Of a DNA stretch of 64,000 bases, positions 3,601 through 49,306 are shown piece after piece. The stretch spans positions 3,964,501-4,028,500 of the forward strand of contig NZ_OY781884.1 of assembly GCF_963677155.1 (NCBI RefSeq). The letters are read 5' to 3'. Both the position numbers and the translations under genes were made by a program. Position 1 is the stretch's first letter. Each line of letters opens with the position of its first letter. This stretch comes from an uncultured Draconibacterium sp. (GTDB lineage: Bacteria; Bacteroidota; Bacteroidia; Bacteroidales; Prolixibacteraceae). The notes beneath the pieces were generated by a model. It made no database searches and was not told the origin of the DNA. It saw only the letters and a program-made list of their open reading frames with translations.

Positions 3601-3694
3601 CGCGGCTAAAGCGAGATTGCTTCAGTCGTTCTTCGTTTGCGCTTACAATTTTTACCACCCCCCCGCTGTAAACGCGGTTCCCCCCTCCTGGCAG

Positions 3695-5122
3695 CTACCC
3701 TTTATACACATCTTTTAAGAACTTCATTGCGACAAGGTATCCCTCATATTTAGTATTAAAGGTATCAAGTCCATTTTTCATTGATATGTAGCCTGGTGGG
3801 CCATGAGACTTATATCCGCTCCAGCCACTAAGCCGGGCTATTGCCCATGCACACCATGCTAAACTTCTGGAGGGATATGGGTTTTGTTGTTTTTTCGTTT
3901 TTCCTTCTATTTCATTTTTTAGTAATAACTCTATAAACTCTATTTGCTGTTGGTTAAATATCAGTTCAGCGTTTAATGCTTCTTTCTTGTTGAGCGATAA
4001 TTTAAGCACCATTATTGTTAATGCAACCTGAAGTGCCATAACAACCTGTTTCTTTAATGCAGCACCGGTTTCAAGCTGTGAGGCTTCAAGCTCAAAGCCT
4101 TTACTTTTCATTATTCTGAAGAGTTCTTCAATAAACCACCTGTTACCGTACCACTCCAAACATTTCATTGCATGGTCAACCTCTGTTATTGGGTGCGTAG
4201 TCAATAACCTCCAAACTATTGGAGATTCTGCTCTGGGCACTGTCTTTGGCTGTTCACGGGCTTCAATAGCCCATAATTCAACATATTCAGGAAGATTCTT
4301 ATCATGTAGTTTTTCTGGCCTTTTTATTTTAAGCTTTACATATTTTAAGGACATTTTTGCTGTCCGGGCTTTTCGTTTTTTATTTCCTTTAATTTCTAAA
4401 TCGTAAACAGCTTTTTGTTCCTGTTGCGATAACTTTTCATAAAGTTTCACATCCTCTCCTGCCAATTTTCGGTTTATTCTTGAACGCACGAGCAAGTGTG
4501 TGCGTTCTTCTGGGATAAGGACAAACTCACTAAAAATATCAGACTCCCTGTCTCCGATAACAGTTAACATTGGTGCTTTGTCTAAAACAGATTTTGTTTT
4601 TCGGGCGCTTTCAATCCAGCGGTATGATTCCTTTTCTGTGATATCTTGTTTCCAATAACTTCGTTCAAATTTATCTTGTTTGTCCCAGTTGCGGTTCCAC
4701 AAATCAATGCTTGACAAGCCGATAGGCAGTTTATCCTTTTCGTTTATCACCAACATCGGATGGCAAAAGAAACCTGCATTATCATTTTTTGTTACCGGAC
4801 CAATATCCTTGTCCTTTTTCCCAATCCGTTGTAGGTGGCTGGTAAAGTTAAACTCTGTTGTATCCTGGATACAAAGAAGATGAGTAGAACCTTGGTTGGC
4901 TTTACAATTAGAAACTACACCTTCTGTTAATTCAAAATGGCTGAAACTATTATTCCCAAACATACGATATGCTCCTATCTTTTCGGTATTCGTTGTACAA
5001 AATTTATTGACAGTAACTTTACCGAAGGTAAGCATATCTGACATAATTTTATTGGCTCGTTTTTCGATTCGGATATCTGGGAGAAATCCATCGAAGAACC
5101 TCTTAAACTCTCTGACTATCAC
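3695..5122 (-). CDS. IS4-family (IS50/Tn5-like) DDE transposase
   Basis: The 475-residue transposase has an N-terminal Tn5-type DNA-binding region (AYRMFGNNSF near residue 52). The catalytic aspartates lie in CIQDTTEFNF (about residue 107) and VIGDRESDI (about 190). The C-terminal YGNRWFIEELFRIMK (about 325-340) matches the IS4 signature Y-x2-R-x3-E-x6-K exactly. All catalytic residues are present, so the enzyme should be active. The start is GTG (5120-5122). The gene uses nearly the full element, leaving about 137 bases upstream for promoter and end sequence. It is identical in protein sequence to the copy at 47659. Confidence 0.95.
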   Translation of the reverse strand: MIVREFKRFFDGFLPDIRIEKRANKIMSDMLTFGKVTVNKFCTTNTEKIGAYRMFGNNSFSHFELTEGVVSNCKANQGSTHLLCIQDTTEFNFTSHLQRIGKKDKDIGPVTKNDNAGFFCHPMLVINEKDKLPIGLSSIDLWNRNWDKQDKFERSYWKQDITEKESYRWIESARKTKSVLDKAPMLTVIGDRESDIFSEFVLIPEERTHLLVRSRINRKLAGEDVKLYEKLSQQEQKAVYDLEIKGNKKRKARTAKMSLKYVKLKIKRPEKLHDKNLPEYVELWAIEAREQPKTVPRAESPIVWRLLTTHPITEVDHAMKCLEWYGNRWFIEELFRIMKSKGFELEASQLETGAALKKQVVMALQVALTIMVLKLSLNKKEALNAELIFNQQQIEFIELLLKNEIEGKTKKQQNPYPSRSLAWCAWAIARLSGWSGYKSHGPPGYISMKNGLDTFNTKYEGYLVAMKFLKDVYKG

Positions 5123-5259
5123 GACTTTAAGATAGTGATAATTGTCAGAGCCTGCAAGATTAAAGCACTGTATTACTGATAGTTAGGCAATGTTTTATCA
5201 ACAATAAAATGTTAGCTCAACAATAAATCAAAGAACGTATATTTGTGTATAAAGGGTAG
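3695..5259 (-). mobile_element. IS4-family insertion sequence, copy 1 (1565 bp)
   Basis: The ends are inverted repeats: CTACCCTTTATACACA at 3695 and its complement ending at 5259. A perfect 9-bp target duplication TCCTGGCAG flanks the element (3686-3694 and 5260-5268). One transposase gene fills almost the whole element and its TAG stop lies inside the left inverted repeat. A second copy at 47659-49223 has the same length and orientation and reads the same throughout by eye, so both insertions are recent. Because this copy carries its own target duplication, it arrived independently and is not one arm of a composite transposon. Confidence 0.95.
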
Positions 5260-5388
5260 TCCTGGCAGGAGGGGAAATTGGGCTTATGGTAGATTGGTTT
5301 TGTCATTGAGATATGAAGGTGAGCACGAACGTTTCTCCTCCTCCGAGGAGGAGTACGCCCCGACGAGTCGGGGTGGGAGGTGGTGTCG

Positions 5389-5442
5389 GGCAGCGGACAA
5401 TGAATTAATTCATTCCCGCACGATTCACAACTGTCCGCTGCC
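5389..5442. repeat. hairpin repeat with conserved loop, copy 1
   Basis: A perfect 11-bp stem GGCAGCGGACA (5389-5399) pairs with TGTCCGCTGCC (5432-5442). The loop contains the palindrome AATGAATTAATTCATT and continues CCCGCACGATTC. A second hairpin at 10019-10067 has a different stem sequence but nearly the same loop, so the loop is the conserved part. Confidence 0.6.
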
Positions 5443-5625
5443 TTAACTTGCTAACAAATGTGTCATTACGACCCCAATGAGTGAAACGAATTGGAAGAAG
5501 CAGTCTTCCTAATCTATTGAACCATAACAATATTTTTCGTAACTTTTGTTCACCAAAACAACACAAGTGCATTTTTACAATTTTACATATACCCATTTCG
5601 TTTGGTTGTACCTGCCAATGCTAGA

Positions 5626-5919
5626 TGTAAATTGCCGAATTGCTATGCAAAAATGTATGCTATCGCAGTTGATAGATTGTGTCTTTCCCAAAAAATGCAC
5701 CCTTTCGCATGCTACAACCAGTATTTTCCCAAAAAAGTGGTGCCTTGCGCATGCGATAACCCATGTTTTTTACAGAAAGTGGTCCCTATTGCATGCGATA
5801 GGCAATGGTTTTGCAAAAAAATGGCCTCCGGTAACTGCGATAGGTAGTGTTTTCGGACAAAAATGCCCCTTTTCGCATACGATAAGTAGTGTTTGTTCAA
5901 ATAAATGGTGTTTATCGCA
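5626..5919. repeat. 42-bp tandem array, about seven diverged units
   Basis: Units of exactly 42 bp start at 5626, 5668, 5710, 5752, 5794, 5836 and 5878. Each follows the pattern GCGATA, about 10 bases, GTTTT, then CAAAAA, TGG and a TCGCA-like end. The units differ at many positions but keep length without a single indel, and each carries one A-tract at the same place. No spacer/repeat alternation is present, so this is not a CRISPR array. Confidence 0.8.
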
Positions 5920-6079
5920 CATACTGAACCCCCTGCTATTACTAATGTTTAGACCGTTTATCGAAGGTTTACGCAGTTGTTTAAGAGAAATTCCTCCGGA
6001 ATTACAATTCAATAGAGTATTAATCAACCCGGATACTTTCCAAAAATGGAACAACCCCCGGGACTAAAATTTATGAATT

Positions 6080-6814
6080 ATGCCATACAGACGTATGCCA
6101 GTTTCTATTATCGACAGAAACAAAGTGCTGGAAAAAACCAGCGAAAAATCAAGCAGTACGCCCGCTGAACAATGGGCGATAAGTACCGAAACGCAAACCC
6201 GGTTAACTACCCTTTACCCGGCTTTCCGCCAGGAGATGGCAGAGCGGCAGGAGCAGTTTGCAAAACAAGCCGAGGCTACCGAAATGGAAAATGCACAGCA
6301 AGTGGTGTTGCGTCGTTGCGTGTCGCATTTTTTCCAGGTTTTTAATTTAGCTGTTGAGCGCGGCGTGTTTCGTGCGTCGGATCGTTTGTACTACGGACTG
6401 AATGCCAACCAGAGCGAACTGCCCAAATTAAGTACCGAGCAAGACCTTACCACCTGGGCACTTAACCTGATGCTGGGCGAGCAGAAACGTACACAACAGG
6501 CCGATCCCGAGGCTGCGGAGCCGGTGCCCATGAGCAACCCGTCGGCAGCCGAAGTGCAGGCCGAACTGACGAAGTACACCGAGCTAAGTAGCGCACAGTC
6601 GGCCGAAAAGCAGGCTTTTGATGCCGAAAACAAAGATGTGCTGGATATGCTGCCCGAAATTGACGAGCTGATACGTGATATTTACGACGAGGTAGAATTT
6701 TACTACCGCAAAGAAACACCGGCCAACCGCCGTAAACTGGCCCGCCAGTGGGGCGTGGTTTATGTATCGCGGCCGGGCGAAGAACCCGATGAAGAGGTGG
6801 CGGTGGAAGAATGA
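6080..6814 (+). CDS. conserved hypothetical protein, no recognised domain
   Basis: This 244-residue soluble protein has no signal peptide or membrane segment. It is rich in Glu, Gln and Ala and probably mostly helical. Residues 60-75 (EQFAKQAEATEMENAQ) and 160-200 look like amphipathic helices. A central block RCVSHFFQVFNLAVERGVFRASDRLYYGLN looks conserved in character, and the tail is acidic. The MPYRR start follows an in-frame stop at 6074, so translation begins at 6080 or at the ATG at 6095. I recall Bacteroidota proteins of similar size beginning MPYRRLP, with no known function. It stands alone, just after the 42-bp array, and is followed by a strong terminator. I cannot assign a function. 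Confidence 0.75.
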   Translation: MPYRRMPVSIIDRNKVLEKTSEKSSSTPAEQWAISTETQTRLTTLYPAFRQEMAERQEQFAKQAEATEMENAQQVVLRRCVSHFFQVFNLAVERGVFRASDRLYYGLNANQSELPKLSTEQDLTTWALNLMLGEQKRTQQADPEAAEPVPMSNPSAAEVQAELTKYTELSSAQSAEKQAFDAENKDVLDMLPEIDELIRDIYDEVEFYYRKETPANRRKLARQWGVVYVSRPGEEPDEEVAVEE

Positions 6815-6840
6815 TTCCGCTGCTAAAACCAATAAAACGA

Positions 6841-6872
6841 AAGGCTGTTCCGGAGGGCAGCCTTTTGTTTTT
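6841..6872 (+). terminator. rho-independent terminator after the hypothetical gene
   Basis: The stem AAGGCTG (6841-6847) pairs with CAGCCTT (6858-6864) and is followed by TTTTGTTTTT. It lies 27 bases after the stop codon at 6814. Confidence 0.85.
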
Positions 6873-6895
6873 CCATGGCAGTATTTAGTGTCGCT

Positions 6896-7027
6896 GCCAC
6901 CCCTCCTGGTCGGAGGGGAAACGTTCGAGGTAAGTTTTTCTATAATCATGAATTGAAATGCGTTCATTTCTCCTCTTAGGCGGAGTACCGCTGATGGAGT
7001 GCAACGGAATCAGTGGGGAGGTGGTGC
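6896..7027. repeat. composite paired-hairpin intergenic repeat C
   Basis: The left unit CCACCCCTCC...GGAGGGGAAA (6897-6920) and an opposite-facing right unit (6966-7027) enclose about 45 bases. The right unit has a TTTCTCC...GGAG stem, a CTGAT/ATCAG stem (6991-7013) and the closing GGGGAGGTGGTG. This repeats the order seen in repeat B, though the stems themselves differ in sequence, so structure is conserved more than sequence. Confidence 0.65.
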
Positions 7028-7091
7028 CTGTATTATTGCTCCATCAGCTCGCAGCTTTCTTTCATCTTTAATCAACCATCCTTTTATCCTG

Positions 7092-7126
7092 CTCGTAACT
7101 CGTAACTCGCGTCTCGTGTCTCGTTT
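7092..7126. repeat. 7-bp tandem repeat, five units
   Basis: Five heptamers in a row start CTCG: CTCGTAA, CTCGTAA, CTCGCGT, CTCGTGT, CTCGTTT. A matching five-unit heptamer array on the other strand (GAG-nnnC type) lies at 28388-28422. Confidence 0.7.
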
Positions 7127-7425
7127 TACAACTTTTACCTCGTTTTCTTTTATGTTAGATAAACAAATGTTACTTTAGTGGCTCATAACCCGGTCACAGC
7201 GAGGAAGATTCAAGATGTTGGAACGTGCCCCAGGAAAGCTGCTATTTATCCGTTTGTAAATACTTATAAATGTTTACAAATACTTGTAAATGGATATGTT
7301 GCTGAAAACAAATGTTTGATACCGAAGAATAAAAACCGAAGCTATAAGCGAAATAAGTGTAGTACATATATACGTACGTTAACGTGAATTTTAACAAACC
7401 GTACCATCTAACATAAAGTATAAAA
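7127..7425. other. AT-rich leader region of the ATPase-methyltransferase gene
   Basis: Base composition drops from here into the next gene. The stretch holds a 15-bp direct repeat AAATACTTRTAAATG (7258-7272 and 7278-7292, one mismatch). Overlapping it is an inverted repeat TTTACAA (7273-7279)/TTGTAAA (7284-7290), and there are small palindromes CGTTAACG and ACGTACGT near 7372-7385. These may be regulatory. The open frame at 7178-7387 needs a GTG start and resembles nothing. Confidence 0.45.
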
Positions 7426-9438
7426 ATGAAATTTAAAAAAGTACAATTTGATGAAAAAATAACTTCCAAAATTGGTTTGAAAGAAGTAAATATTGACCGT
7501 TTAGGACAAATAGTTGCCTTAGTTGGTAAAAATGGTTCCGGCAAATCAAGATTATTAAAATTGATTAATGAGAATTTTGGTAGTTTAATGACCAACAATG
7601 ATTTTATAAATGACGATTTCAGCCTCGAGATATCGAAGAAAAATAAATTACTTTCATCAAAACAATCATATAAGGAGGAATTGCGTAGAGTAAAAAAAGA
7701 AATAATAAGGATCGAAAGTCAATTAAAACGTTATCCCAATAATGCTAATGGAAAAAAGAAATTAATTGAATTTCAAAAAGAAATTGAAAATTACAATCTT
7801 AAAATTCGAGAAATTAATAGCGAAATAACAAAACTTAATAAAGTAGAGCGAAATGTAAATTCAATCAAGGAGAAGTATTTAAAAATAATAAGACATGAAG
7901 AAGTAAAAGAACTTCAAACAGCTATTAATACAACAGCTGAAGACAATGTTTCATTTGAGAACCTAATTACAAGCGTAAGCGAAAATCTAGAATATAATGA
8001 ACTAAATAGTTTATATAAAACTTCTTTTGAGTTTTTAAAAAATCTTCCACAACAGCTTGTTAAAGATAAACTTTACAATTTTAAAAATGATAAAGACTTT
8101 AAAAAACAATTGTCATCTAAAAGGTTTTCTGCATTTAAAGAGATATTTGAAAATATTTTTGGAAAAGAATTAGATTGGGATTCAGATGTAATTAGCTTAG
8201 AGCAAGTTCACGATTCAGTCAATGGAAATATGGTTGGTTATTTCACTGTTAATGGTATGAAATTTAACTATTTGCAGTTTTCAGATGGTGAAAAGATTTT
8301 ATTCTCATATGTTTTAATGTTTTTTCTAATGTCTCAAAATAAAAATCTTAGATTTAAGGACAGTATAATTGTGATTGATGAGCCAGAATTACATTTACAT
8401 CCAGATGCCGAAATTGATTTGATTAATGGTATAAGAAACATTATATCTAAAAATGGACAATTATGGATTGCAACTCATTCATTAAATATTATATCACATT
8501 TAAATTTTGATGAAATATTTGTTTTGAAAGATGGACAAATTTTTCATCCATCGAGATCAATACAACATGACGCATTAAAAGAACTTTTAAAAATCGATGA
8601 TAGAATTTTTAAATTGTCCGAATTCATAAATTCAATTACAGAATGGACATTTACACAATTTATTACTGAGTGTTTTATAAATCCAGAAGTAATTGAGTCT
8701 TCTAATAAAAATGACCCACAAATAGAATCATTTATAAACTTCTTGAAAACATTAAAAGATGAGAAAAAGACTTTTTTACTAGATTTTGGAGCAGGAAAAG
8801 GACGATTGGTTGAACACGTACTATCAGGTGTGAATGTAGTTAATAAAATCGAGTATTGCGCTTTAGAGCCAGATATAGATTGCCACAAATCATTAATATC
8901 GAAAGGTGTAAAGTCTATCTTTTCTTCTCACGATGATTTACCATCTGAGACTTTTGATATAATAATATTATGTAATGTTCTGCATGAGATAAAACTTGAT
9001 AATTGGATGTATATTCTTAATAAGATTATTAACTCATTAAGCAACTCTGGATATCTAATGATTATAGAGGCTAAAACTTTATCAAAAGGAGAAAACATAG
9101 AGGATATTGGTTATTTATTATTAGATGAATCCGAGTTGTCAAAGTTATTTAATATTACACCTCCCTTAATAAATCTTGCAAATAACGGATCTCAAGATAA
9201 AATTACCAGTGTGGTCATCTCAAGTAAAGATTTAAAATATGTAACGATTGAGAATCTTCAAAATACTTTAGAATTTTTAGGTAAGAACACTCTTGAAAAG
9301 ATAATTAATTTAAGAAAAGAGAATTATGAAAATGTGAATATAAATTCAATAGGACGAAAATCAGCTTTTTATTCTCAATTGCATATTAATTCGAAGATTG
9401 CACTTATGCATATAAATAAAATGGAGAATCAAAACTAA
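7426..9438 (+). CDS. AAA/ABC-type ATPase fused to a SAM-dependent methyltransferase
   Basis: This 670-residue fusion has an N-terminal ABC/SMC-like ATPase. Walker A GKNGSGKS is at 34-41, followed by a charged coiled coil (about 78-145), an ABC-signature-like FSDGE (285-289), Walker B VIDEPELHLHP (D318, E319) and an H-loop ATHS (H351). The ATP-binding half resembles OLD/RecF-type AAA_21 proteins common in phage-defence genes. After residue 440 comes a class I methyltransferase: motif I LLDFGAGKGR (452-460), acidic ribose-binding ALEPD and motif IV-like NVLHEI (517-522). All key nucleotide-binding residues are present in both halves. The gene stands alone, is clearly AT-richer than its neighbours and is flanked by repeats, suggesting acquisition by transfer. 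A defence or DNA/RNA-modification role is inference; I know of no characterised protein with this exact order. Confidence 0.85.
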   Translation: MKFKKVQFDEKITSKIGLKEVNIDRLGQIVALVGKNGSGKSRLLKLINENFGSLMTNNDFINDDFSLEISKKNKLLSSKQSYKEELRRVKKEIIRIESQLKRYPNNANGKKKLIEFQKEIENYNLKIREINSEITKLNKVERNVNSIKEKYLKIIRHEEVKELQTAINTTAEDNVSFENLITSVSENLEYNELNSLYKTSFEFLKNLPQQLVKDKLYNFKNDKDFKKQLSSKRFSAFKEIFENIFGKELDWDSDVISLEQVHDSVNGNMVGYFTVNGMKFNYLQFSDGEKILFSYVLMFFLMSQNKNLRFKDSIIVIDEPELHLHPDAEIDLINGIRNIISKNGQLWIATHSLNIISHLNFDEIFVLKDGQIFHPSRSIQHDALKELLKIDDRIFKLSEFINSITEWTFTQFITECFINPEVIESSNKNDPQIESFINFLKTLKDEKKTFLLDFGAGKGRLVEHVLSGVNVVNKIEYCALEPDIDCHKSLISKGVKSIFSSHDDLPSETFDIIILCNVLHEIKLDNWMYILNKIINSLSNSGYLMIIEAKTLSKGENIEDIGYLLLDESELSKLFNITPPLINLANNGSQDKITSVVISSKDLKYVTIENLQNTLEFLGKNTLEKIINLRKENYENVNINSIGRKSAFYSQLHINSKIALMHINKMENQN

Positions 9439-9450
9439 AAAAACTCACGG

Positions 9451-9576
9451 TAACATTTTATATATTGCATAGCGGTTTTTGTGGTGTGCGTAGCTCGGAT
9501 TCACGCTTGATTGTCCTACGTCCTTCGGACGGACAATCACCCGCAATCCGCTACGACAACATATAATTTTCCGTTA
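9451..9576. other. large attC-like foldback element
   Basis: An imperfect inverted repeat about 125 bases long begins 12 bases after the preceding stop codon. The outer arms are TAACATTTTATATATTGC...TAGCGG (9451-9475) and CCGCTACG...CCGTTA (9548-9576). An inner stem GTAGC-GGATT-GATTGTCC (9490-9516) pairs with GGACAATC-AATCC-GCTAC (9531-9554), leaving unpaired TC on one side only. The core is GTCC-TTC-GGAC. Outer TAAC/GTTA ends with one-sided bulges are the hallmark layout of integron attC sites, but the 7-bp R-boxes do not match the attC consensus well. Confidence 0.5.
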
Positions 9577-13124: not shown

Positions 13125-13210
13125 GTTTCGACAAAACTCAACCTAACTATTTAGAATCACTGTGAAAAATCATTAGGGAAATCTATTTCAATTTATACAT
13201 TCGCATAAAT

Positions 13211-13274: not shown

Positions 13275-13290
13275 AGAAAACCGAAACGAA

Positions 13291-17520: not shown

Positions 17521-18273
17521 CTACCAAACTCCACTCAAACCATCCTCCAGCGCTTTTTTATAGTTCTCGCGGTTAAATTCGTACAGAAACGGTGCTTTAT
17601 GAGCTCCGCCGGTTTTTCGCTCATTTAGTTTGTTCAGAATTTTGTACGACAATATCTTACGCTGAAAATTTCTACGGTCGAGTTCGCGTCCCAAAATCGT
17701 TTCGTACAGCTTTTGCAATTGCGGCATGGTAAACTTTTGGGGTAACAATTTTAATCCAATGGGTTGCCGGTTCAGTTGAATACGCAAAGTGGTAAGCGCT
17801 TTATCAATAATCTCTTTGTGGTCGAGAACCATTTCTACATCATCAAACGGGTTGATCCATTCGCAAGCTTCCGAAAGTGCATCGGGTTGCGGATTTACTT
17901 TCGAGAACTCCACCAACGCATAAAATCCAACTGAAATAAAACGCTGATTAAAAAATGCCACCACTTCCGGCGGTTCATTTTTTAAAAATTCAGGATCGTC
18001 TTTTTTCTGTTTATCCCTTAATGGGGCGCTAAAAACCTTAAACTGTTTCAGAAAAATATTGTCCAGCCCGGTTCGTTCTTTTAAGGTTCGTTCGGCGGCC
18101 TGCTCCAGTGTTTCTTCGTGCTTCAAAAAACCTCCGGGCAAACCATAGGTTTTCGTATGCTTTAACTTTAGCATTAAAACCTTTAATTCATTATCGTGAA
18201 AACCAAATATTACACAATCTAAAGAAATATGATCGAGTATCTCCGAAACGTTAAGATGGAAATTATCTGCCAA
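17521..18273 (-). CDS. Nudix-fold transcriptional regulator (AraR/NrtR type)
   Basis: This 250-residue protein has an N-terminal Nudix domain (about 10-150) and a C-terminal winged helix (about 165-250, ending GGAHKAPFLYEF). The Nudix box keeps its first G and E (GFLKHEE) but reads RTLKER where active enzymes have REUxEE. Two metal-binding glutamates are therefore replaced, and hydrolysis is unlikely. This fits ligand-sensing regulators such as AraR of Bacteroides, which control arabinose or other sugar genes. The start appears to be TTG: an in-frame stop lies upstream, no ATG is available before the Nudix domain, and its paralog at 55738-56490 does the same. Confidence 0.85.
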   Translation of the reverse strand: MADNFHLNVSEILDHISLDCVIFGFHDNELKVLMLKLKHTKTYGLPGGFLKHEETLEQAAERTLKERTGLDNIFLKQFKVFSAPLRDKQKKDDPEFLKNEPPEVVAFFNQRFISVGFYALVEFSKVNPQPDALSEACEWINPFDDVEMVLDHKEIIDKALTTLRIQLNRQPIGLKLLPQKFTMPQLQKLYETILGRELDRRNFQRKILSYKILNKLNERKTGGAHKAPFLYEFNRENYKKALEDGLSGVW

Positions 18274-26091: not shown

Positions 26092-28053
26092 ATGGAAGGA
26101 TTAGAAAATCTAATAAAGATATCACAATTCTATGGCAAAAATCCAGAGATGGTGATTGCCGGAGGTGGAAACACTTCTTATAAAAACGATGAAAATATTT
26201 GGGTGAAAGCTAGTGGTCATGCGTTGGCAACAATTACCGAAGAGGGGTTTGCCAGGCTTGACCGCAAAAAGCTCGGTCTGATTTCAGAAAGAACATACTG
26301 CGTCGATTCGTTTGAGCGCGAACGCCAGATTAAAGATGACCTGATGGAAGCTACCATCACAAAAGACCGTCGCCCATCGGTTGAAACATCAATGCACGAT
26401 GTTATCGAGTATGCTTACGTAGTGCATCTGCACCCAACAAAAGTAAATGGACTGATGTGTGGCAACGAGGTGGTAAAATACCTCGATGAATTGTTTGGCG
26501 ACCAGGTGGTTTACATTCCATACATCGATCCGGGGTACGTGCTGTTTAAAGAGGTTGAAAAGCAGCTGTCCAAATTCAAAGCCGAAAAAGGTAAAGCCGC
26601 ACAGATCATCTTTTTGCAAAATCACGGAATTTTTGTGGCAGCTGATTCTATCGATGAGATTGAAACGATTTACAACGATGTATTTGCAAAATTGAACGGT
26701 GCTTTGAAAGAGGAATTATCGGAAGAAACCCTGCCAATTCGCGATGATATTGCTGAATTTGTTCCTGCCATTCGAATGATGGTTTCCGAAGAGGAAATTA
26801 AAACGCTGAAAATTCGGAATAATGCCGTAATTGCACAATTCGCAAAAGATGCAGCGGCCTTTGAAAAAGTGGCCAAACCGTTTACTCCGGATCTGATCGT
26901 TTACTGTAAATCGAAATATGTATTTATTGAAAATACCGAAAATATTGAAGACCTTTTGAAAGAGGCCAAAGAAAAGATCGCGGCTTTTATTTCAACAAAC
27001 GGATTTGCACCAAAAGTAATTTTGCTGAAAGGAATCGGTTTGCTGGCAGTTGGTGATCATGCGGCACAATGCGACACTATTCTGGATGTGTATGAAGATG
27101 CGATGAAGATCAGTGCTTATTCTGAATCATTCGGTGGTCAGCATTTTATGACAGATGAGCAAATTGCCTTTATCGATACCTGGGAGGTGGAGAATTACCG
27201 CCGCAAAATTGCTGCCGGAACATCTGTTGGCCGCGTTCAGAATAAAACCATTATTGTAACCGGCGCTGCCATGGGATTTGGCGAAGGTATTGCCCGACAT
27301 CTGACTGAAGAAGGTGCCAACATTGTTGTGGCCGATATTAACGAAGAAGTTGGACAAAAAACGGCAGCAGAACTGGCTGCGATGAAAGGGAACAACTGGG
27401 CGGTTTTTGTAAAAACGAATGTTGCTGATATGGATAGCCTGGCCAATTTGATGAAAGAAACTGTTGCTACTTTTGGTGGACTGGATGTATTTGTAAGTAA
27501 TGCAGGCGTTTTGCGTGCGGGTGGTCTGGACGAAATGACTCCGGAAAATTTTGAGTTTGTTACCAAAATAAACTACAATGCCTATTTCTATTGCACAAAA
27601 GTAGCCTCTAAAATTTTGAAACTTCAAAATGCTTATAAGCCGGATTATTATTCTGATATCATTCAGGTTAACTCAAAATCGGGTTTAAAAGGAAGTAAAA
27701 AGAATTTTGCCTATGCCGGTGGTAAATTTGGAGGAATCGGTCTTACTCAGTCGTTTGCCTTGGAACTGGCACCCGATAAAATTAAAGTGAATGCGGTTTG
27801 TCCGGGTAACTTTTATGAAGGCCCGTTGTGGAGCGATCCTGAAAACGGTTTGTTCATTCAGTACCTGAATGCCGGAAAAGTGCCGGGAGCAAAAACAATC
27901 GACGATGTGAAGCAATTTTATTTAGACCAGGTGCCGCTTGGTAAAGGATGTTCTCCAAAAGATGTGGTGAAAGGGATTTTGTATCTGATTGATCAGGAGA
28001 ATGAAACAGGACAGGCATTGCCGATTTCGGGCGGACAGTCGATGTTGCACTAG
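26092..28053 (+). CDS. class II aldolase fused to short-chain dehydrogenase
   Basis: This 653-residue protein has two enzymes. The N-terminal class II aldolase/adducin domain (about 1-240) has GGGNTSYK for phosphate binding, zinc ligands in VVHLHPTKVNG and a further His in QNHGIFV. A linker leads to an SDR (about 385-653) with TGAAMGFGEG, SNAG and the catalytic NSKSG...YAGGK. The SDR tail (GLTQSFALELAP, then QFYLDQVPLGKGC and SGGQSM) is strikingly like sorbitol-6-phosphate 2-dehydrogenase SrlD. The order resembles RhaEW-type rhamnulose-1-phosphate aldolase/lactaldehyde dehydrogenase fusions, but the SDR half points to a sugar-alcohol phosphate. Substrate is uncertain. Confidence 0.85.
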   Translation: MEGLENLIKISQFYGKNPEMVIAGGGNTSYKNDENIWVKASGHALATITEEGFARLDRKKLGLISERTYCVDSFERERQIKDDLMEATITKDRRPSVETSMHDVIEYAYVVHLHPTKVNGLMCGNEVVKYLDELFGDQVVYIPYIDPGYVLFKEVEKQLSKFKAEKGKAAQIIFLQNHGIFVAADSIDEIETIYNDVFAKLNGALKEELSEETLPIRDDIAEFVPAIRMMVSEEEIKTLKIRNNAVIAQFAKDAAAFEKVAKPFTPDLIVYCKSKYVFIENTENIEDLLKEAKEKIAAFISTNGFAPKVILLKGIGLLAVGDHAAQCDTILDVYEDAMKISAYSESFGGQHFMTDEQIAFIDTWEVENYRRKIAAGTSVGRVQNKTIIVTGAAMGFGEGIARHLTEEGANIVVADINEEVGQKTAAELAAMKGNNWAVFVKTNVADMDSLANLMKETVATFGGLDVFVSNAGVLRAGGLDEMTPENFEFVTKINYNAYFYCTKVASKILKLQNAYKPDYYSDIIQVNSKSGLKGSKKNFAYAGGKFGGIGLTQSFALELAPDKIKVNAVCPGNFYEGPLWSDPENGLFIQYLNAGKVPGAKTIDDVKQFYLDQVPLGKGCSPKDVVKGILYLIDQENETGQALPISGGQSMLH

Positions 28054-28093
28054 GATTGAAGACATTGAGAATTTGAGAGGGTGAGACAGTGTG

Positions 28094-28282
28094 AAATTGT
28101 CCGGGAAACCTTAAGGAATGCACGGGAAACCGTAAGGAACGCATAGGACACGCAAAGGAATGCATGGGGAACAGTAAGGAATACATGGGGAACAGTAAGG
28201 AATGCACGGGGTAACTTAAGGAGCTCATGAGTAACGTTAAAGAACACATTTGGAACGGTTAGGAACTCACAGGAAACTATTA
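28094..28282. repeat. 21-bp tandem array, about nine units
   Basis: Units of 21 bp begin at 28094, 28115, 28136, 28157, 28178, 28199, 28220, 28241 and 28262, with the pattern GGAATGCACG-GGAAACCGTAA. Each unit is itself two GGAA half-units about 10.5 bases apart. Outer units are more diverged than the centre. Reading frames stay open only because 21 is a multiple of 3; no gene is called. Confidence 0.8.
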
Positions 28283-28387
28283 GGATTTCCGGCAGGCCGG
28301 TAAAAGTAATTGTTAATAAAGCAAAGTAGTAAAAAAGCAGAGGAATAAAAATTGGAAAGGATTATTGATAAGTGATGAAAAAGGTTT

Positions 28388-43100: not shown

Positions 43101-44339
43101 CATTTCGATCCTGATAAGATGGAGAAAATGATATTTAACCTTTTGTCGAATGCCTTTAAATATTCGCCCGATAACAGCACTGTTTCGATAACTGCTTTTG
43201 AGCGAGTAAGCAACAAGGAAGATAAAGAGGTGGTGGTTGAAGTTCAGGACAGTGGTGTTGGTATTGCCAAAGAATATCAGGAAAAAATATTTGAGCGTTT
43301 TTTCCAGGTGAAGCAAATACGAACGCAAAGTACGGGGGGAATTGGTCTGTTTATGGCCAAGGCAATGATTGAGCAACATGGCGGATCGATAGAGTTAGAC
43401 AGCGAAGAAGGAAAGGGAAGCTGTTTCCGGCTGGTTTTGCCACTAAACAGTGAACTGGCGGGCAAGGCTGAAAAAAGTGAAAAATGGAAACCGGAAGATT
43501 CGATTACAACTTTGGTTCAACCCGAAGATGCCACCTTCGAAAATATTTTACACGATAACTCTTTAAGCGCTTCGGATAAGTCAAAACCACAAGTATTGGT
43601 TGTTGAAGATGATGCGGATTTGAAGGAGTTCTTGTGCACTGGTTTGTCGAAACATTTTAATGTTGAGTACGCTGATAATGGCAAGGAGGCACTTGAAAAA
43701 ATTGAGGGAAACACTCCCGACTTAATTCTTTCGGATGTAATGATGCCCGAAATGGATGGTTTTGAACTGTGCACCCAACTGAGAAATGACCTGAGTTATT
43801 CGCACATCCCGGTAATTTTCCTAACGGCCAAAACCATGCAGGAAGATCAGATTAAAGGATTAAAGCTTGGAGCGGTTGATTATATTTACAAACCATTTAA
43901 TATGGTGTCTTTGTCGCTAAAAATCTACAATTTACTGAACCTGCAAAAACAAGAACAAGAACGCTTGCGCACAGAACAAATATTGGAGCCCGAACATATT
44001 GAATTGTCATCGTTAGACGAGGAATTTCTGAAAGCCGCTGTTCAATCGGTACAGAACAATCTGGACAATACTGAATTTGATGTGGAAGCTTTTAGTGCCG
44101 AATTAAAAGTAAGTGCCAACCAGGCTTACCGAAAAATAAAAGCACTTACCGGGCAAACAGCCAACGAGTTTATTCGTACTCAACGATTAAAAGTTGCGTC
44201 GGGATTGCTGGTGCAGAAAAAAAGATCAATTAGCGAAGTGATTTATATGGTCGGATTCACCAGTCCTTCGTATTTTAGCCGTTGCTTTAAAGATTTTTAC
44301 GGATGCACGCCAAAAGAGTACATTGAAAAAAATACCTGA
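40185..44339 (+). CDS. hybrid two-component system sensor-regulator (HTCS)
   Basis: This 1384-residue protein holds a whole signalling pathway. After a signal peptide it has a periplasmic double beta-propeller of two-component regulator repeats (WIGTLNGL, WIGTASGLN, WIGTWNDGL and others, about 25-720). A Y_Y_Y domain (FRMEGFDTQW-like, about 750-810) and one membrane helix (about 818-842) follow. The kinase phosphoacceptor is H871 in DITHELRTP, with ATPase NLLSNAFKYSP. The receiver has D1184 in LILSDVMMPE, and an AraC-type DNA-binding end comprises about 1275-1384. It senses an oligosaccharide in the periplasm and should activate the neighbouring GH and SusCD genes. The ATG at 40185 is chosen; an upstream in-frame TTG lies in a palindrome. 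Confidence 0.96.
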   Translation: MLRITKLLIVFLLCCCTALAQNELYFSHLGTENGLTIDKSNTITQDQNGFMWIGTLNGLTRFDGYDYVTYHPHFHDSTSISNREITKLLVDKAGNLWIGTASGLNFMNLETGALKRYKIRSRILSLTEDHDGIIWIGTWNDGLYKLNPGSDEMSHYLASEVVSDIYEDSRQILWIATYNGLLRFYPDSGEYKRHVAETAQNTFSHTTITQIVESKEGNLWIGTWGGGLNKAELNSEGKITRVTVYRETNGVNRLGDDVVFKLYYDQFDNLWIGSWNEGLSLLKYDQQQLPPEEAVFWNYQASVNNPGSLSSNAVSALFVDKSGLLWVGTSKIDRASITDNGLSRYVLPSTVDNLGNKIYIKSFAAYNNQLWIGTSYNLLQYELKNGVYILKQDYGELKYTHDGHEFIAYTIYDMYADNTGLWIGTEDAGLIHYHFTRDMELDFSSREYYNKNTKIAIPGDKVIELCPSVKYPNVIYAGITERGFVILKTDGKQVISVESFSFGPESDQISSNIIRTLHEDSTGDVWIGTENGLNCYHPETGKFDKYFYSTADKKSLNDNAVNAILEDSFGNLWVGTTSGLNRKIRDVDSLGDEVVKFKGFPEIDYLQNDLISGLMEDKSGHLWIRTYRGIVEFDVQKEVIVSKHFSQDYQNDRLERNAQFALENGKIVVGNLAGFIVQEPQNISQTEQATNVVITDLLIYDKSMNDELTLRTKYGINLDIPYAEKVNLSYKDKMVTFSFSDMDFKNPGKNEYFYRMEGFDTQWNSAGTRNTATYTNLPPGNYTFKVVASSGNDVDFAKATTFQVSMSPPWWKSIVAYLGYILLFIAVLYFFMKYSIINAQKKSELAFEHLRAEELRNLNEQKTLFFTDITHELRTPLTLILGPSKELLDDKKLNAESHKLAQLINTSAYKLLRLVNQLLEFRKIEKGIPDSLYIQQCNLSNLLHEVFNFFKPMADSRQIEFDLNITPENIVAHFDPDKMEKMIFNLLSNAFKYSPDNSTVSITAFERVSNKEDKEVVVEVQDSGVGIAKEYQEKIFERFFQVKQIRTQSTGGIGLFMAKAMIEQHGGSIELDSEEGKGSCFRLVLPLNSELAGKAEKSEKWKPEDSITTLVQPEDATFENILHDNSLSASDKSKPQVLVVEDDADLKEFLCTGLSKHFNVEYADNGKEALEKIEGNTPDLILSDVMMPEMDGFELCTQLRNDLSYSHIPVIFLTAKTMQEDQIKGLKLGAVDYIYKPFNMVSLSLKIYNLLNLQKQEQERLRTEQILEPEHIELSSLDEEFLKAAVQSVQNNLDNTEFDVEAFSAELKVSANQAYRKIKALTGQTANEFIRTQRLKVASGLLVQKKRSISEVIYMVGFTSPSYFSRCFKDFYGCTPKEYIEKNT

Positions 44340-44424
44340 TTAAACGAGTAAGACAGCATGGAAGGCAGTTTTTCGAATATGTACAATTTTACGTTGAATT
44401 TATAACACTAATTGCCAAAACGGA

Positions 44425-44487
44425 CTGATATTTTTGCTTCATATTGCCCTCGAATATCAGAATAAATGCAATAAAGTAAAATATCAG
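44425..44487 (+). promoter_or_regulatory. CTGATATT/AATATCAG sites before GH43
   Basis: CTGATATT (44425-44432) pairs with AATATCAG (44453-44460), and a third site AATATCAG lies at 44480-44487, 5 bases before the start codon. The first two are an 8-bp inverted repeat about 28 bases centre to centre. They are candidates for the hybrid sensor's DNA-binding sites. Confidence 0.4.
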
Positions 44488-44492
44488 TTATC

Positions 44493-45677
44493 ATGAAACC
44501 AATATCAAATCAATCTTTTTCTATTCTATTAATTTTAATTTGTGCCGCTTTGCTAACGGCATTCATTGGGTGCAACCCGAAAAAAGATTTACCACAGGGA
44601 TTTCAGAGTTTTAATCCGGGGCAAGCCTGGCCCGATGCCGACAGTGTGCACATAAACGCCCACGGAGGAGGAATTCTTTATTATAACGATACCTATTATT
44701 GGTTTGGCGAATACAAAAGCGAAAATACCAGTTCGGCCAGGGTGGGAGTGAATTGTTATTCTTCGAAAGATTTGTATAACTGGAAACCTGAAGGTGTTGT
44801 ATTGCCGGTAAGCGACAGTATTGGAAGCGATATTGAGAGCGGATGCGTAATGGAGCGTCCAAAGGTTATTTACAACGCTAAAACACAACAATTTGTATTG
44901 TATTTTCACCTGGAGCTGAAAGGACAGGGGTACAGTGCTGCACGTGTTGGTATTGCCGTAAGCGACAATGTTACCGGACCTTACACTTATTTGCATTCAT
45001 TGCGTCCGAATGCAGGAGTTTGGCCTCAGAACATGACTGAAGAGCAGAAAAACAGCAGTGTAACCCCGAATGATTTTGCCGATTGGAGGACGGATGAATG
45101 GATGCAGGCAGTTCACGATGGCTTATTTATCCGACGAGATTTTGAAGGAGGACAGATGGCGCGCGACATGACACTTTTTGTTGATGACGATGGAAAAGCC
45201 TATCATATTTATTCTTCGGAAGAAAACCTGACATTGCATATTGCCGAATTAAGCGATGACTACCTAAGTTACACCGGAAAATATATACGAGTGGCTCCTG
45301 GCGGTCACAACGAAGCGCCGGCCATTTTCAAAAAAGATGGGAAATATTTTATGATAACATCAGGCTGTACGGGCTGGGATCCCAACGCTGCCCGCATGTT
45401 TACAGCCAAATCGATATGGGGGCCTTGGGAGCAACATTCAAATCCTTGTGTTGGCGAGGATGCCAATCTGACTTTCCACTCGCAAAGTACATACGTTTTA
45501 CCTTTGGCCGGGAAAGACGATTCTTTTATTTTTATGGCCGATCGCTGGACGCCTAAAAAGCCAATCGAAGCAACCTACATTTGGTTGCCCATTCAATTTG
45601 AAAACGGATTACCTGTATTAAAATGGATGGACGAGTGGAACCTCAGCATTTTTGACGAAACAAATGAATTACGATAA
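44493..45677 (+). CDS. GH43-family glycosidase, lipoprotein
   Basis: This 394-residue enzyme has a lipoprotein signal (LTAFIGCNPKK) and a five-bladed beta propeller. GH43 features include the early AHGGGILYYNDTYYWFGEY, MERPKVIYN, RDMTLFVDDDGKAYHIYSSEENLTLHIAEL and GGHNEAPAIFKKDGKYFMITSGCTGW, where the E of NEAP is the usual catalytic acid. I think it belongs to the subfamily near GH43_34, with galactose- or arabinose-removing members. It is 9 bases upstream of GH2 in one operon. Confidence 0.85.
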   Translation: MKPISNQSFSILLILICAALLTAFIGCNPKKDLPQGFQSFNPGQAWPDADSVHINAHGGGILYYNDTYYWFGEYKSENTSSARVGVNCYSSKDLYNWKPEGVVLPVSDSIGSDIESGCVMERPKVIYNAKTQQFVLYFHLELKGQGYSAARVGIAVSDNVTGPYTYLHSLRPNAGVWPQNMTEEQKNSSVTPNDFADWRTDEWMQAVHDGLFIRRDFEGGQMARDMTLFVDDDGKAYHIYSSEENLTLHIAELSDDYLSYTGKYIRVAPGGHNEAPAIFKKDGKYFMITSGCTGWDPNAARMFTAKSIWGPWEQHSNPCVGEDANLTFHSQSTYVLPLAGKDDSFIFMADRWTPKKPIEATYIWLPIQFENGLPVLKWMDEWNLSIFDETNELR

Positions 45678-45686
45678 ATAGAAATA

Positions 45687-47495
45687 ATGAAAAAATTAGC
45701 AGTATTTGCATTGCTCCTGTTGCCATTTATTGGTTTGGCTCAGGATGCTTTTATTCAGAATACCAACGGACGAGAATTTACCAGCTTGAACGGTAAGTGG
45801 AAATATGTACTTGATCCTTACGAACAGGGGCAGATTGGCTTTATGCCTGTTTATAAGAATGTAAAACAAAAAGACAAATCAGATCGGGTTGAATACAGTT
45901 TCGACGATGCTCAAACACTTTGGGTTCCAGGTGCCTGGGATGCACAAAAACCTGAGCTTGCCTACTACGAAGGAAGTATCTGGTACCGCAAAACCTTTGA
46001 TAAAACAGACCTTTCGAACGATAAACGTTATTTTGTGTATGTTGGTGCGGCCAATTATATAAGTACAGTAACATTAAACGGAGAAGTGCTGGGCGTTCAT
46101 GAAGGTGGATTTACGCCTTTTGCTTTCGAAATCACAGACTTGCTCAAGGAGAAGGATAATTTTCTGATAATCGGAGTAAACAACAGCCGCCGAAAAGGTG
46201 GAATTCCGGCTCCGGTTACCGATTGGTTTAATCATGGCGGAATTACCCGTGATGTGAAATTGATCGAGGTTCCAAAAACTTTTGTAAGCAACTATTTTCT
46301 ATCCTTAGACAAAAATACACTTGATTCGAAAACCAAACAGATTAACGGAAAACTGGAATTGAACGGAAAGACTTTTCCCGATAAAGCGCGGATTGAAATT
46401 CCAGAATTAAAGGTTGACAAAGAAGTTGATGTTGCAGCCGACGGGACATGCAATTTTACCATCAGCATAAAAAATATAGAGTTGTGGTCGCCTAAAAATC
46501 CAAAATTGTACGAAGTTTCCATCTCGGCCGCGAATGATAAAGTAAGCGATCAAATAGGATTCAGAACAATTGAAACCGAAGGCAAAAAAATACTGCTGAA
46601 TGGAAAACAAATTTTCTTAAGAGGAATTTCGTTGCACGATGAAAATCCGCTTCGTGCCGACCGTGCAAATTCTGTAGAAGATGCAAAACTTGTTTTGGGC
46701 TGGGCAAAAGAATTGGGATGCAATTTTATTCGTTTGGCGCATTATCCGCATCAGGAGAATATTCTTCGCGAGGCGGATAAAATGGGCATTCTGCTTTGGG
46801 AAGAGTTGCCTTTGTACTGGGGCATCGATTGGAAAGATCAGGGAGTACTGCGAAAAGCAAAACAGCAGTATACTGAAGTGATCAACCGCGATTATAACCG
46901 CGCAAGTTCAATTATTTGGTCCATTGCAAACGAAACAACTCCATCTGATTCCCGCAATGCATTTTTGGGTGCGGTTGCCGATCATATTCGCTCTATCGAT
47001 AATACCCGTTTACTCTCAGCGGCATGTAAAAAAGATCAGCCCGGCGATGGAAACAAGGCAAAATATTATACCATTAACGACCCACTGATGAAGTATCTCG
47101 ACATTGTAAGTTTTAACGAATATTTGGGATGGTACGGTGGTTTACCCGACGAGTGTCGTGAGAAAGTTATTTCATCGGATGAAGACAAACCAATTATTGT
47201 CAGTGAATTTGGAGGCGGTGCATTGCAGGGATTTCATGCCGACAGTTTGACCCGCTGGAGCGAAGAATTTCAGGAATATTTGTACCATGAGAGCATTTCG
47301 ATGTTCGACAAAATCGATGGTTTAGCGGGAATGACGCCGTGGATTCTGGTAGACTTCATGTCGCCGCTGCGTCAGTTGCCCGGTGTTCAGGATGGCTGGA
47401 ACAGAAAAGGTTTGATTTCAGAAAAAGGATATAAAAAGAAAGCTTTTTTCGAATTGCAGAAGTATTACGAAAAGAAAGCAGTAGAATACGAGTAG
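45687..47495 (+). CDS. GH2-family beta-glucuronidase/beta-galactosidase-like enzyme
   Basis: This 602-residue secreted enzyme has a signal peptide (to about LAQDA), a sugar-binding domain (VPGAWDAQ, SIWYRKTF), an immunoglobulin-like middle and a TIM barrel. The acid/base Glu is in SIIWSIANETTP and the nucleophile Glu in IIVSEFGGGALQG. The KQIFLRGISLHDENPLR block is typical of GH2. Its length of about 600 residues matches beta-glucuronidases more than the longer LacZ type. In this locus it may remove glucuronic acid exposed by GH78. Confidence 0.88.
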   Translation: MKKLAVFALLLLPFIGLAQDAFIQNTNGREFTSLNGKWKYVLDPYEQGQIGFMPVYKNVKQKDKSDRVEYSFDDAQTLWVPGAWDAQKPELAYYEGSIWYRKTFDKTDLSNDKRYFVYVGAANYISTVTLNGEVLGVHEGGFTPFAFEITDLLKEKDNFLIIGVNNSRRKGGIPAPVTDWFNHGGITRDVKLIEVPKTFVSNYFLSLDKNTLDSKTKQINGKLELNGKTFPDKARIEIPELKVDKEVDVAADGTCNFTISIKNIELWSPKNPKLYEVSISAANDKVSDQIGFRTIETEGKKILLNGKQIFLRGISLHDENPLRADRANSVEDAKLVLGWAKELGCNFIRLAHYPHQENILREADKMGILLWEELPLYWGIDWKDQGVLRKAKQQYTEVINRDYNRASSIIWSIANETTPSDSRNAFLGAVADHIRSIDNTRLLSAACKKDQPGDGNKAKYYTINDPLMKYLDIVSFNEYLGWYGGLPDECREKVISSDEDKPIIVSEFGGGALQGFHADSLTRWSEEFQEYLYHESISMFDKIDGLAGMTPWILVDFMSPLRQLPGVQDGWNRKGLISEKGYKKKAFFELQKYYEKKAVEYE

Positions 47496-47530
47496 CTTTT
47501 TTGATATAAATTGATATTGAGTGTTTGAAA

Positions 47531-47563
47531 GCAGCAGCAGGAATTTCTTGTTGCTGTTTTTTA
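47531..47563 (+). terminator. terminator of the GH43-GH2 operon
   Basis: CAGCAGCA and TGTTGCTG form a stem with one G-T pair, followed by TTTTTTATT. Confidence 0.75.
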
Positions 47564-47658
47564 TTAGGTCTCTCAAAAATCAATAGCACAATTAGGTTTA
47601 AAGTTATTAGACTCACCCTGATTGTTCCTTCGACACAATCGTCCCTCTCTACTCGAAG

Positions 47659-49086
47659 CTACCCTTTATACACATCTTTTAAGAACTTCATTGCGACAAG
47701 GTATCCCTCATATTTAGTATTAAAGGTATCAAGTCCATTTTTCATTGATATGTAGCCTGGTGGGCCATGAGACTTATATCCGCTCCAGCCACTAAGCCGG
47801 GCTATTGCCCATGCACACCATGCTAAACTTCTGGAGGGATATGGGTTTTGTTGTTTTTTCGTTTTTCCTTCTATTTCATTTTTTAGTAATAACTCTATAA
47901 ACTCTATTTGCTGTTGGTTAAATATCAGTTCAGCGTTTAATGCTTCTTTCTTGTTGAGCGATAATTTAAGCACCATTATTGTTAATGCAACCTGAAGTGC
48001 CATAACAACCTGTTTCTTTAATGCAGCACCGGTTTCAAGCTGTGAGGCTTCAAGCTCAAAGCCTTTACTTTTCATTATTCTGAAGAGTTCTTCAATAAAC
48101 CACCTGTTACCGTACCACTCCAAACATTTCATTGCATGGTCAACCTCTGTTATTGGGTGCGTAGTCAATAACCTCCAAACTATTGGAGATTCTGCTCTGG
48201 GCACTGTCTTTGGCTGTTCACGGGCTTCAATAGCCCATAATTCAACATATTCAGGAAGATTCTTATCATGTAGTTTTTCTGGCCTTTTTATTTTAAGCTT
48301 TACATATTTTAAGGACATTTTTGCTGTCCGGGCTTTTCGTTTTTTATTTCCTTTAATTTCTAAATCGTAAACAGCTTTTTGTTCCTGTTGCGATAACTTT
48401 TCATAAAGTTTCACATCCTCTCCTGCCAATTTTCGGTTTATTCTTGAACGCACGAGCAAGTGTGTGCGTTCTTCTGGGATAAGGACAAACTCACTAAAAA
48501 TATCAGACTCCCTGTCTCCGATAACAGTTAACATTGGTGCTTTGTCTAAAACAGATTTTGTTTTTCGGGCGCTTTCAATCCAGCGGTATGATTCCTTTTC
48601 TGTGATATCTTGTTTCCAATAACTTCGTTCAAATTTATCTTGTTTGTCCCAGTTGCGGTTCCACAAATCAATGCTTGACAAGCCGATAGGCAGTTTATCC
48701 TTTTCGTTTATCACCAACATCGGATGGCAAAAGAAACCTGCATTATCATTTTTTGTTACCGGACCAATATCCTTGTCCTTTTTCCCAATCCGTTGTAGGT
48801 GGCTGGTAAAGTTAAACTCTGTTGTATCCTGGATACAAAGAAGATGAGTAGAACCTTGGTTGGCTTTACAATTAGAAACTACACCTTCTGTTAATTCAAA
48901 ATGGCTGAAACTATTATTCCCAAACATACGATATGCTCCTATCTTTTCGGTATTCGTTGTACAAAATTTATTGACAGTAACTTTACCGAAGGTAAGCATA
49001 TCTGACATAATTTTATTGGCTCGTTTTTCGATTCGGATATCTGGGAGAAATCCATCGAAGAACCTCTTAAACTCTCTGACTATCAC
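47659..49086 (-). CDS. IS4-family (IS50/Tn5-like) DDE transposase, copy 2
   Basis: This 475-residue protein is identical in sequence to the transposase at 3695-5122, including the catalytic aspartates, the Y-x2-R-x3-E-x6-K signature and the GTG start. Intact reading frames in both copies indicate a currently or very recently mobile element. It separates the GH43-GH2 operon from the fucose genes. Confidence 0.95.
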   Translation of the reverse strand: MIVREFKRFFDGFLPDIRIEKRANKIMSDMLTFGKVTVNKFCTTNTEKIGAYRMFGNNSFSHFELTEGVVSNCKANQGSTHLLCIQDTTEFNFTSHLQRIGKKDKDIGPVTKNDNAGFFCHPMLVINEKDKLPIGLSSIDLWNRNWDKQDKFERSYWKQDITEKESYRWIESARKTKSVLDKAPMLTVIGDRESDIFSEFVLIPEERTHLLVRSRINRKLAGEDVKLYEKLSQQEQKAVYDLEIKGNKKRKARTAKMSLKYVKLKIKRPEKLHDKNLPEYVELWAIEAREQPKTVPRAESPIVWRLLTTHPITEVDHAMKCLEWYGNRWFIEELFRIMKSKGFELEASQLETGAALKKQVVMALQVALTIMVLKLSLNKKEALNAELIFNQQQIEFIELLLKNEIEGKTKKQQNPYPSRSLAWCAWAIARLSGWSGYKSHGPPGYISMKNGLDTFNTKYEGYLVAMKFLKDVYKG

Positions 49087-49223
49087 GACTTTAAGATAGT
49101 GATAATTGTCAGAGCCTGCAAGATTAAAGCACTGTATTACTGATAGTTAGGCAATGTTTTATCAACAATAAAATGTTAGCTCAACAATAAATCAAAGAAC
49201 GTATATTTGTGTATAAAGGGTAG
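47659..49223 (-). mobile_element. IS4-family insertion sequence, copy 2 (1565 bp)
   Basis: The boundaries are CTACCC at 47659 and GGGTAG ending at 49223, equal to copy 1 in length and orientation, with no difference noticed by eye. The flanks CTACTCGAAG (47649-47658) and CTACTCGTAG (49224-49233) are a 10-bp target duplication with one mismatch. The insertion sits in the loop of a hairpin repeat, as in copy 1. The two copies are direct repeats 44 kb apart, so recombination between them could delete or duplicate the whole rhamnosidase/SusCD and 2-oxoacid dehydrogenase region. Confidence 0.95.
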
Positions 49224-49306
49224 CTACTCGTAGAGAGGGAATGAGGAAGAGTTCGACTAAAATAGTATTATTTTTATTTGTGATTCCGAAAAATCAAAAA
49301 TATTAT

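Follow-up and report, generated by a model that had tools for sequence, protein, structure and literature searches.

A Tn5-like insertion sequence of Draconibacterium that favours extragenic palindromes, probably through a symmetric sequence motif

Introduction

What does a transposase recognise when its element repeatedly sits in the middle of short palindromes: the structure into which the palindrome can fold, or its sequence? This question is raised by a 64,000-bp stretch of DNA from an uncultured Draconibacterium sp. (hereafter the window; bases 3,964,501-4,028,500 of a source genome that forms a single contig of 5.27 Mb), which carries two identical copies of a 1565-bp insertion sequence (IS), at 3695-5259 and 47659-49223, each splitting a palindrome. 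Comparison of insertion sites in this and other genomes makes it likely that the element, a member of the IS50 (Tn5) subgroup of the IS4 family, owes a strong target preference to a symmetric sequence motif that resides in extragenic palindromes. The insertions are centred on a double half-site: a pyrimidine-rich left half, CYYCY^YT, faces its complement on the right side, and the cuts fall 9 or 10 bp apart.

Results

Both window copies split the second palindrome of a two-hairpin repeat

The features of the two loci are given below; target duplications carry no strand.

3663-3677, plus strand: first hairpin of the type-A repeat (CCGC-TGTAAAC-GCGG), by direct reading
3682-3694, plus strand: left part of the split second palindrome, type A
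3686-3694: left target duplication of copy 1, TCCTGGCAG, 9 bp, exact
3695-5259, minus strand: IS copy 1, 1565 bp, ends CTACCCTTTATACACA / TGTGTATAAAGGGTAG, one of nine identical copies
3695-5122, minus strand: transposase of copy 1, 475 amino acids (aa), IS4 family, IS50/Tn5-like (NF033590, 327.5 bits; Tn5, 96.6 bits)
5260-5268: right target duplication of copy 1, TCCTGGCAG, 9 bp, exact
5269-5274, plus strand: right arm of the split palindrome, type A, GAGGGG
47620-47640, plus strand: first hairpin of the type-B repeat (GATTGT..ACAATC), by direct reading
47643-47648, plus strand: left arm of the split second palindrome, type B, CCCTCT
47649-47658: left target duplication of copy 2, CTACTCGAAG, 10 bp, one base unlike the right copy
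47659-49223, minus strand: IS copy 2, identical in sequence to copy 1
47659-49086, minus strand: transposase of copy 2, 475 aa, from the list of open reading frames (ORFs)
49224-49233: right target duplication of copy 2, CTACTCGTAG, 10 bp
49234-49239, plus strand: right arm of the split second palindrome, type B, AGAGGG

We rebuilt the empty sites by removing the IS and one duplicate. The rebuilt site of copy 1 reads CCCCTCC-TGGCA-GGAGGGG and belongs to a type-A repeat of the form CCACC..CCGCTGTAAACGCGG..CCCCTCC-TGGCA-GGAGGGG, and that of copy 2 to a type-B repeat, CACCC..GATTGT..ACAATC..CCCTCTCTA-CTCG-TAGAGAGGG. A preliminary description of the window had placed both copies in the same kind of two-hairpin repeat. 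The shared two-hairpin design is there, as is the split near the centre of the second palindrome, but the repeats form two families, A and B, rather than one. The same description had equated the duplication with the loop of the second hairpin; it does sit on the palindrome centre or no more than one base away (one base off in copy 1), but it takes in some stem bases as well. The duplications of copy 2 (CTACTCGAAG/CTACTCGTAG) show an A/T mismatch at one base, and because the palindrome is kept intact by the right one, the left one probably mutated after insertion.

The element belongs to the IS50 subgroup

A recent burst of the element is indicated by the nine copies of the 1565-bp IS present genome-wide, among which there is no difference, and by the matching counts of exact IS ends (nine in forward and nine in reverse orientation). 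The ends are perfect over 16 bp (CTACCCTTTATACACA; as a pair, CTACCCTTTATACACA / TGTGTATAAAGGGTAG). The transposase is encoded in a single ORF of 475 aa that matches NF033590 at 327.5 bits. Tn5 transposase structures match it over residues 44-468 (96.6 bits), and its Y(2)R(3)E(6)K motif, YGNRWFIEELFRIMK, aligns with that of Tn5. The element thus combines in one ORF a DDE transposase and the Y(2)R(3)E(6)K motif by which the IS4 family and its IS50 subgroup are delimited. Compared by eye, every specified base of the terminal pattern listed for the subgroup, CW------Y---CA-A--W- (PMC2266710, Table 1), fits at CTACCCTTTATACACATCTT and CTACCCTTTATACACAAATA. The same source gives a typical length of 1350-1550 bp and direct repeats of 8-9 bp for the IS50 subgroup; the IS is 15 bp longer than this range, and while its duplications span about one helix turn, a hallmark of the family, those of 10 bp (16 of the 35 sites described below) exceed the subgroup's 8-9 bp.

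Insertions in this and other genomes

Of 140 genomes of the family, 17 have the same ends. One related genome (G008) contains 12 full copies, of which ten are 83% and two 68% identical to the query, and another (G031) contains three that are 75% identical. In other genomes there are shorter forms, the clean ones measuring 199-569 bp; we take them for miniature, non-autonomous relatives of the IS. From 44 candidates we obtained 35 clean sites, defined by a duplication with at most one mismatch: 23 elements of 1553-1565 bp and 12 short ones, comprising all nine own copies and 26 further insertions. The other nine (L034, L079, L080, L084, L089, L093, L095, L102 and L116) have flanks without a clean duplication.

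A scan of named genomes yielded 109 further stretches. Of these, 106 are assigned to Bacteroidota; the remaining three are assigned to Gastranaerophilales (L177), an archaeon (L188) and Oscillochloris (L201), which may be binning errors. Stretches duplicating already sampled places were excluded by flank comparison. Among 27 further complete elements, 13 with clean duplications, from other Bacteroidota, form an external set, and 14 were excluded as their duplication was not clean. When 393 genomes of the order were searched by protein, three relatives at 37-39% identity came up besides the own copies; a protein-based scan of genome contigs found no relative. In Bacteroides acidifaciens, a miniature element of 163 bp (L170, 5189-5351) has the same ends and is centred in CCCCTCCTTCGGGAAGGAGGGG.

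Insertion sites share a symmetric motif

The 35 sites share a symmetric half-site, approximately T-N-C-Y-Y-C-Y^Y-T, whose complement stands opposite at a distance of 9-10 bp. Among the 70 half-sites, T stands at -7 in 48, and C at -5 in 52 and at -2 in 63; positions -4, -3 and -1 are C/T, and inside the duplication a C or T is followed by T. The targets comprise type A (CCCCTCC..GGAGGGG), type B (CCCTCTCT..AGAGAGGG) and other families. It had been proposed that rebuilt sites be compared with background for restored hairpins, and in this comparison pairing exceeds chance: the arms pair at 5.0 of 8 positions at the 35 sites versus 2.06 at background, and at least six of eight pairs form at 43% of the sites versus 0.6% of background. 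The fit to ISs that target repetitive extragenic palindromes (REPs), whose copies split such a repeat at a fixed point, is partial: several repeat families rather than one are hit, and one insertion lies inside a competence gene. In the latter case (L033; G008:C1:4387601-4392165, a related species), the IS interrupts a ComEC-like gene (PF03772) near its 5' end, and the target is a 5-bp chance palindrome within the gene.

To compare motif and hairpin strength as predictors, we trained a half-site matrix on the other clusters and used it to scan each empty locus (in most cases about 2,790 bases); in a strict version, all sites linked via any shared 10-mer within 30 bp were removed from training, giving nine families. 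The cross-validated motif ranked the true site first at 18 of the 35 loci and among the top five at 30, and the strict motif, trained on unrelated repeats only, did so at 18 and 28, respectively. The corresponding figures were nine and 17 for a hairpin score at the exact centre, and 11 and 23 for a hairpin score with 3 bp of slack. Conditional logit models with one site for each of the nine unrelated families gave log likelihoods (lnL) of -77.4 (null), -65.5 (stem), -17.6 (motif) and -17.6 (both); over 26 clusters, lnL was -59.8 for the motif and -160.6 for the stem. Hairpin or cruciform structure was rejected as the main driver, since the motif predicts far better and the stem adds nothing over the nine families.

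At 21 of the 35 sites, the insertion is centred to within 1 bp on a stem that scores at least 15; three sites lie off centre in strong hairpins, and 11 have stem scores below 15. The insertion at L027 is 4 bp off the centre of an 11-bp stem, and that at L009:1952 is 3 bp off centre, although the matrix slightly favours the centre there (13.7) over the true site (13.0). Weak hairpins with a motif match were used at L010, L033 and L038.

Duplication length tends to follow the palindrome

Duplications measure 9 bp at 19 of the 35 sites and 10 bp at 16. At strong-hairpin sites, all 12 duplications of 10 bp belong to even palindromes, and 8 of the 12 of 9 bp belong to odd ones; when the type-B family is counted once, the fractions become 5/5 and 8/12 (Fisher p = 0.029, with the other repeat families uncollapsed). 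In 19 of 26 clusters, the half-site spacing that scores better also gives the observed duplication length (one-sided p = 0.014). That half-site spacing sets the duplication length is a suggestive reading of these figures, not a settled one.

Orientation is mixed and occupancy varies

Both window copies point one way, and the transposase had been described as keeping a single orientation relative to the repeat. This does not extend to the nine clean type-B insertions of this and related genomes (mixed elements and single ends excluded), four of which are forward (the window copy at 47659, L012, L032 and L104) and five reverse (L011, L013, L018, L036 and L037), so that a fixed orientation in the repeat was rejected. 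Random orientation and random position within the repeat had been named as signs against target selection; the orientation indeed looks random, but the position does not.

Vacant type-B palindromes were searched with at most two mismatches to CCCTCTCT-N6-AGAGAGGG. The source genome (G000) has four filled palindromes and three vacant look-alikes, one of which was inspected and is a full type-B repeat; G008 has four filled, three vacant and one mixed. Across the genus (37 genomes), each genome has 0 to 26 vacant matches, and several with at least ten have few or no exact ends; high occupancy is thus seen in G000 and G008 and is not general. Within the window, vacant palindromes that score as strong targets lie at 3498, 3586, 5340 and 6905, three of them less than 200 bp from copy 1.

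Mixed elements and relatives with another target

Sixteen elements without a shared duplication, seven from the 44 and nine from the 27, were scored by halves. Left out of both this and the clean sets were L080, L102, L136, L175, L181 and L187 (two mismatches) and L235 (another palindrome); L174 and L225 are doubtful members of the sixteen. A half-site (score at least 4) is kept in 28 of the 32 flanks; among 5000 random positions in the window, 54 reach this score. The mixed flanks would be explained by copies having recombined with one another. For the IS4-family element ISRm22, three copies with imperfect duplications are likewise ascribed to inter-copy recombination in the account given in PMC1525189.

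G522 is a draft genome from another genus; of its 37 distinct ends, 34 score at least 4. Its contigs break at many copies of the element ends (loci L108-L128 and L239-L264), and CCTCTCT occurs in 23 of the 37 distinct flanks, many of them preceded by a different first hairpin.

The same ends also occur in a different palindrome, which as read from half-sites is GCCCAGGGC-NNN-GCCCTGGGC, in Prevotellaceae contigs (isolates RUG036 and SUG1453; Prevotella sp. SUG78) and in one uncultured Bacteroidales (RUG12191). The one complete Prevotellaceae copy (L235; SUG1453, 1443-3054) encodes a 483-aa transposase of the same NCBIfam family with 37% identity to that of the window. It is probably a recombinant, because its flanks are inverted copies of each other, with one mismatch in 41 bases and the 3-base loop reversed. 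These sequences hint that target choice may shift between hosts.

Discussion

Sequence motif, hairpin structure or descent

In the mechanism that we favour, the element would move by cut-and-paste, as its relatives do. A transposase dimer would read double-stranded DNA, with one half-site per protomer, and the spacing of the half-sites would bias the stagger towards 9 or 10 bp. Since several families of extragenic palindromic repeats hold two correctly spaced half-sites, they could offer the IS and its short non-autonomous relatives places to land that are probably harmless.

The transposase might instead recognise an extruded hairpin or cruciform, or a single-strand hairpin at a replication fork, in which case the motif would be a mere consequence of hairpin composition. 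The 21 sites centred on strong stems fit this idea, and so does the Prevotellaceae relative in a palindrome of different sequence. We nevertheless regard it as unlikely, because the stem alone predicts the insertion base so poorly over the nine families (lnL -65.5, against -17.6 for the motif), because 11 of the 35 sites have stem scores below 15, and because three strong hairpins were hit off centre, L027 by 4 bp. The earlier proposal that hairpin or cruciform targets are selected therefore survives in that the element chooses palindromes, and does so precisely, but the data favour a symmetric sequence motif over structure.

Several observations weigh against the motif as the full explanation, and some of them speak for structure. 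When right arms were swapped between sites (one per cluster), pairing fell from 4.47 for own arms to 3.71 of 8 positions (95% of swaps, 3.23-4.19; P = 0.0015), a small drop that indicates that pairing stems mostly from the shared motif and partly from the targets being true palindromes. Adding the exact-centre stem to the motif improves lnL by 3.0 over 26 clusters (-59.8 to -56.8) and by 8.0 over 39 sites (-115.6 to -107.6), so a weak symmetry effect beyond the motif persists in these larger, less independent sets. At the 13 external sites the matrix places four in the top five, compared with seven for a loose hairpin score and three for an exact one; it is thus not fully transferable to distant hosts. 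Half-site spacing predicts the duplication length at just 7 of these 13 sites. Some clean insertions are poor in motif (L085 and L027, with strict matrix ranks of 55 and 52; L156 and L226 in the external set), and a score of at least 4 is reached by only 20 of 37 single ends in other loci of the named-genome scan and by none of the eight Prevotellaceae-type single ends. With a matrix trained on all 35 sites, vacant positions in the window reach at least 15 in four places, every one of them a strong hairpin. Motif and palindrome are hence hard to part, and there are only nine strict families. Because one of these holds 23 of the 35 sites, we hold the motif explanation a shade less firmly than we otherwise would.

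Two further explanations dispense with repeated targeting of a recognised site. If repeat and element had spread as one unit, the shared site would reflect common descent. The near-identical flanks at many left ends in G522 could include copies that moved together; yet duplications vary by site, insertions occur in both orientations, palindromes of this kind are also found vacant, and several repeat families as well as one competence gene were hit, which makes joint spread quite improbable. Still harder to credit is wide landing without preference, followed by selection that spares only insertions in neutral extragenic repeats. Just one of the 35 sites (L033) lies in a stop-free frame of more than 250 codons, as such selection would have it, but the precise insertion point inside a repeat is beyond what selection can fix, and four of the nine own insertions lie in type-B palindromes versus about 0.0003 expected by length for seven sites (a post hoc comparison).

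Going beyond the motif itself, we offer as a tentative idea, with the balance somewhat against it, that Tn5-like transposases of Bacteroidota might keep their ends while the target-reading surface switches among host palindromes (CYYCYYT of the Draconibacterium/Maribellus type; GCCCAG|GGC-NNN-GCC|CTGGGC in the 37%-identical Prevotellaceae relative), with half-site spacing setting the 9/10-bp stagger.

Relation to known elements

Tn5 is valued for near-random insertion and has a weak target preference only. The IS resembles IS50/Tn5 in its transposase (residues 44-468), the YREK motif, the terminal-base pattern and the 9-bp duplication at 19 of 35 sites; unlike Tn5, it is highly selective and makes 10-bp duplications at the other 16. 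A Tn5 relative with a strong, symmetric, base-level target code allows the residues that turn a promiscuous transposase site-selective to be sought. Its insertions also form a natural set for separating sequence symmetry from hairpin structure, an old ambiguity for palindrome-using ISs. The target motif of another element, IS231A, is GGG-N5-CCC. Its polarity is opposite to that seen here (C-rich left, G-rich right), and it differs in subgroup and repeats. IS231A is listed as an IS4-family element with insertion specificity (PMC2266710), and Tn5 insertion sites are described as often palindromic (PMC1525189).

ISRm22 of Sinorhizobium meliloti, like the IS described here, is an IS4-family element found in extragenic palindromes (REPs), where all nine of its nine chromosomal copies are reported to lie (Tobes and Pareja 2006, PMC1525189). 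It differs in using S. meliloti REPs, in its 6-bp duplications (PMC1525189) and in its subgroup, given as IS4Sa (PMC2266710), whereas the present IS belongs to the IS50 subgroup, enters several kinds of palindromes through one half-site motif and makes 9- or 10-bp duplications. IS1397, ISKpn1, IS621, ISPsy8, ISPpu9/10 and others also land in extragenic palindromes according to PMC1525189; those named belong to the IS3/IS110 families, unlike the IS4-family element here. Targeting of extragenic palindromes by ISs, an IS4-family case included, is therefore already known (PMC1525189). A literature search, with most subscription papers outside its scope, recognised no report of this element, its motif or its miniature inverted-repeat transposable elements. 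As far as the searches show, what is new within the literature covered is the member itself, its base-level motif, which spans several repeat families, the occurrence of both 9- and 10-bp duplications, and an indication that a relative has switched target.

Other repeats in the window

No Rfam family reaches its gathering score within the window. REP-associated tyrosine transposases were also looked at, and the genome has five Y1_Tnp matches. At 5640-5930, reading by eye shows degenerate repeats, about 60 bases long, around GCATGCGATA. A 21-base repeat array at 28082-28291, in which an 84-base stretch recurs as seven overlapping copies spaced by 21 bases, lies just after an ORF ending at 28053. 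Finally, the stretches 17522-17955 and 55739-56172 are similar to each other (72% identity) and lie in minus-strand ORFs of 250 aa.

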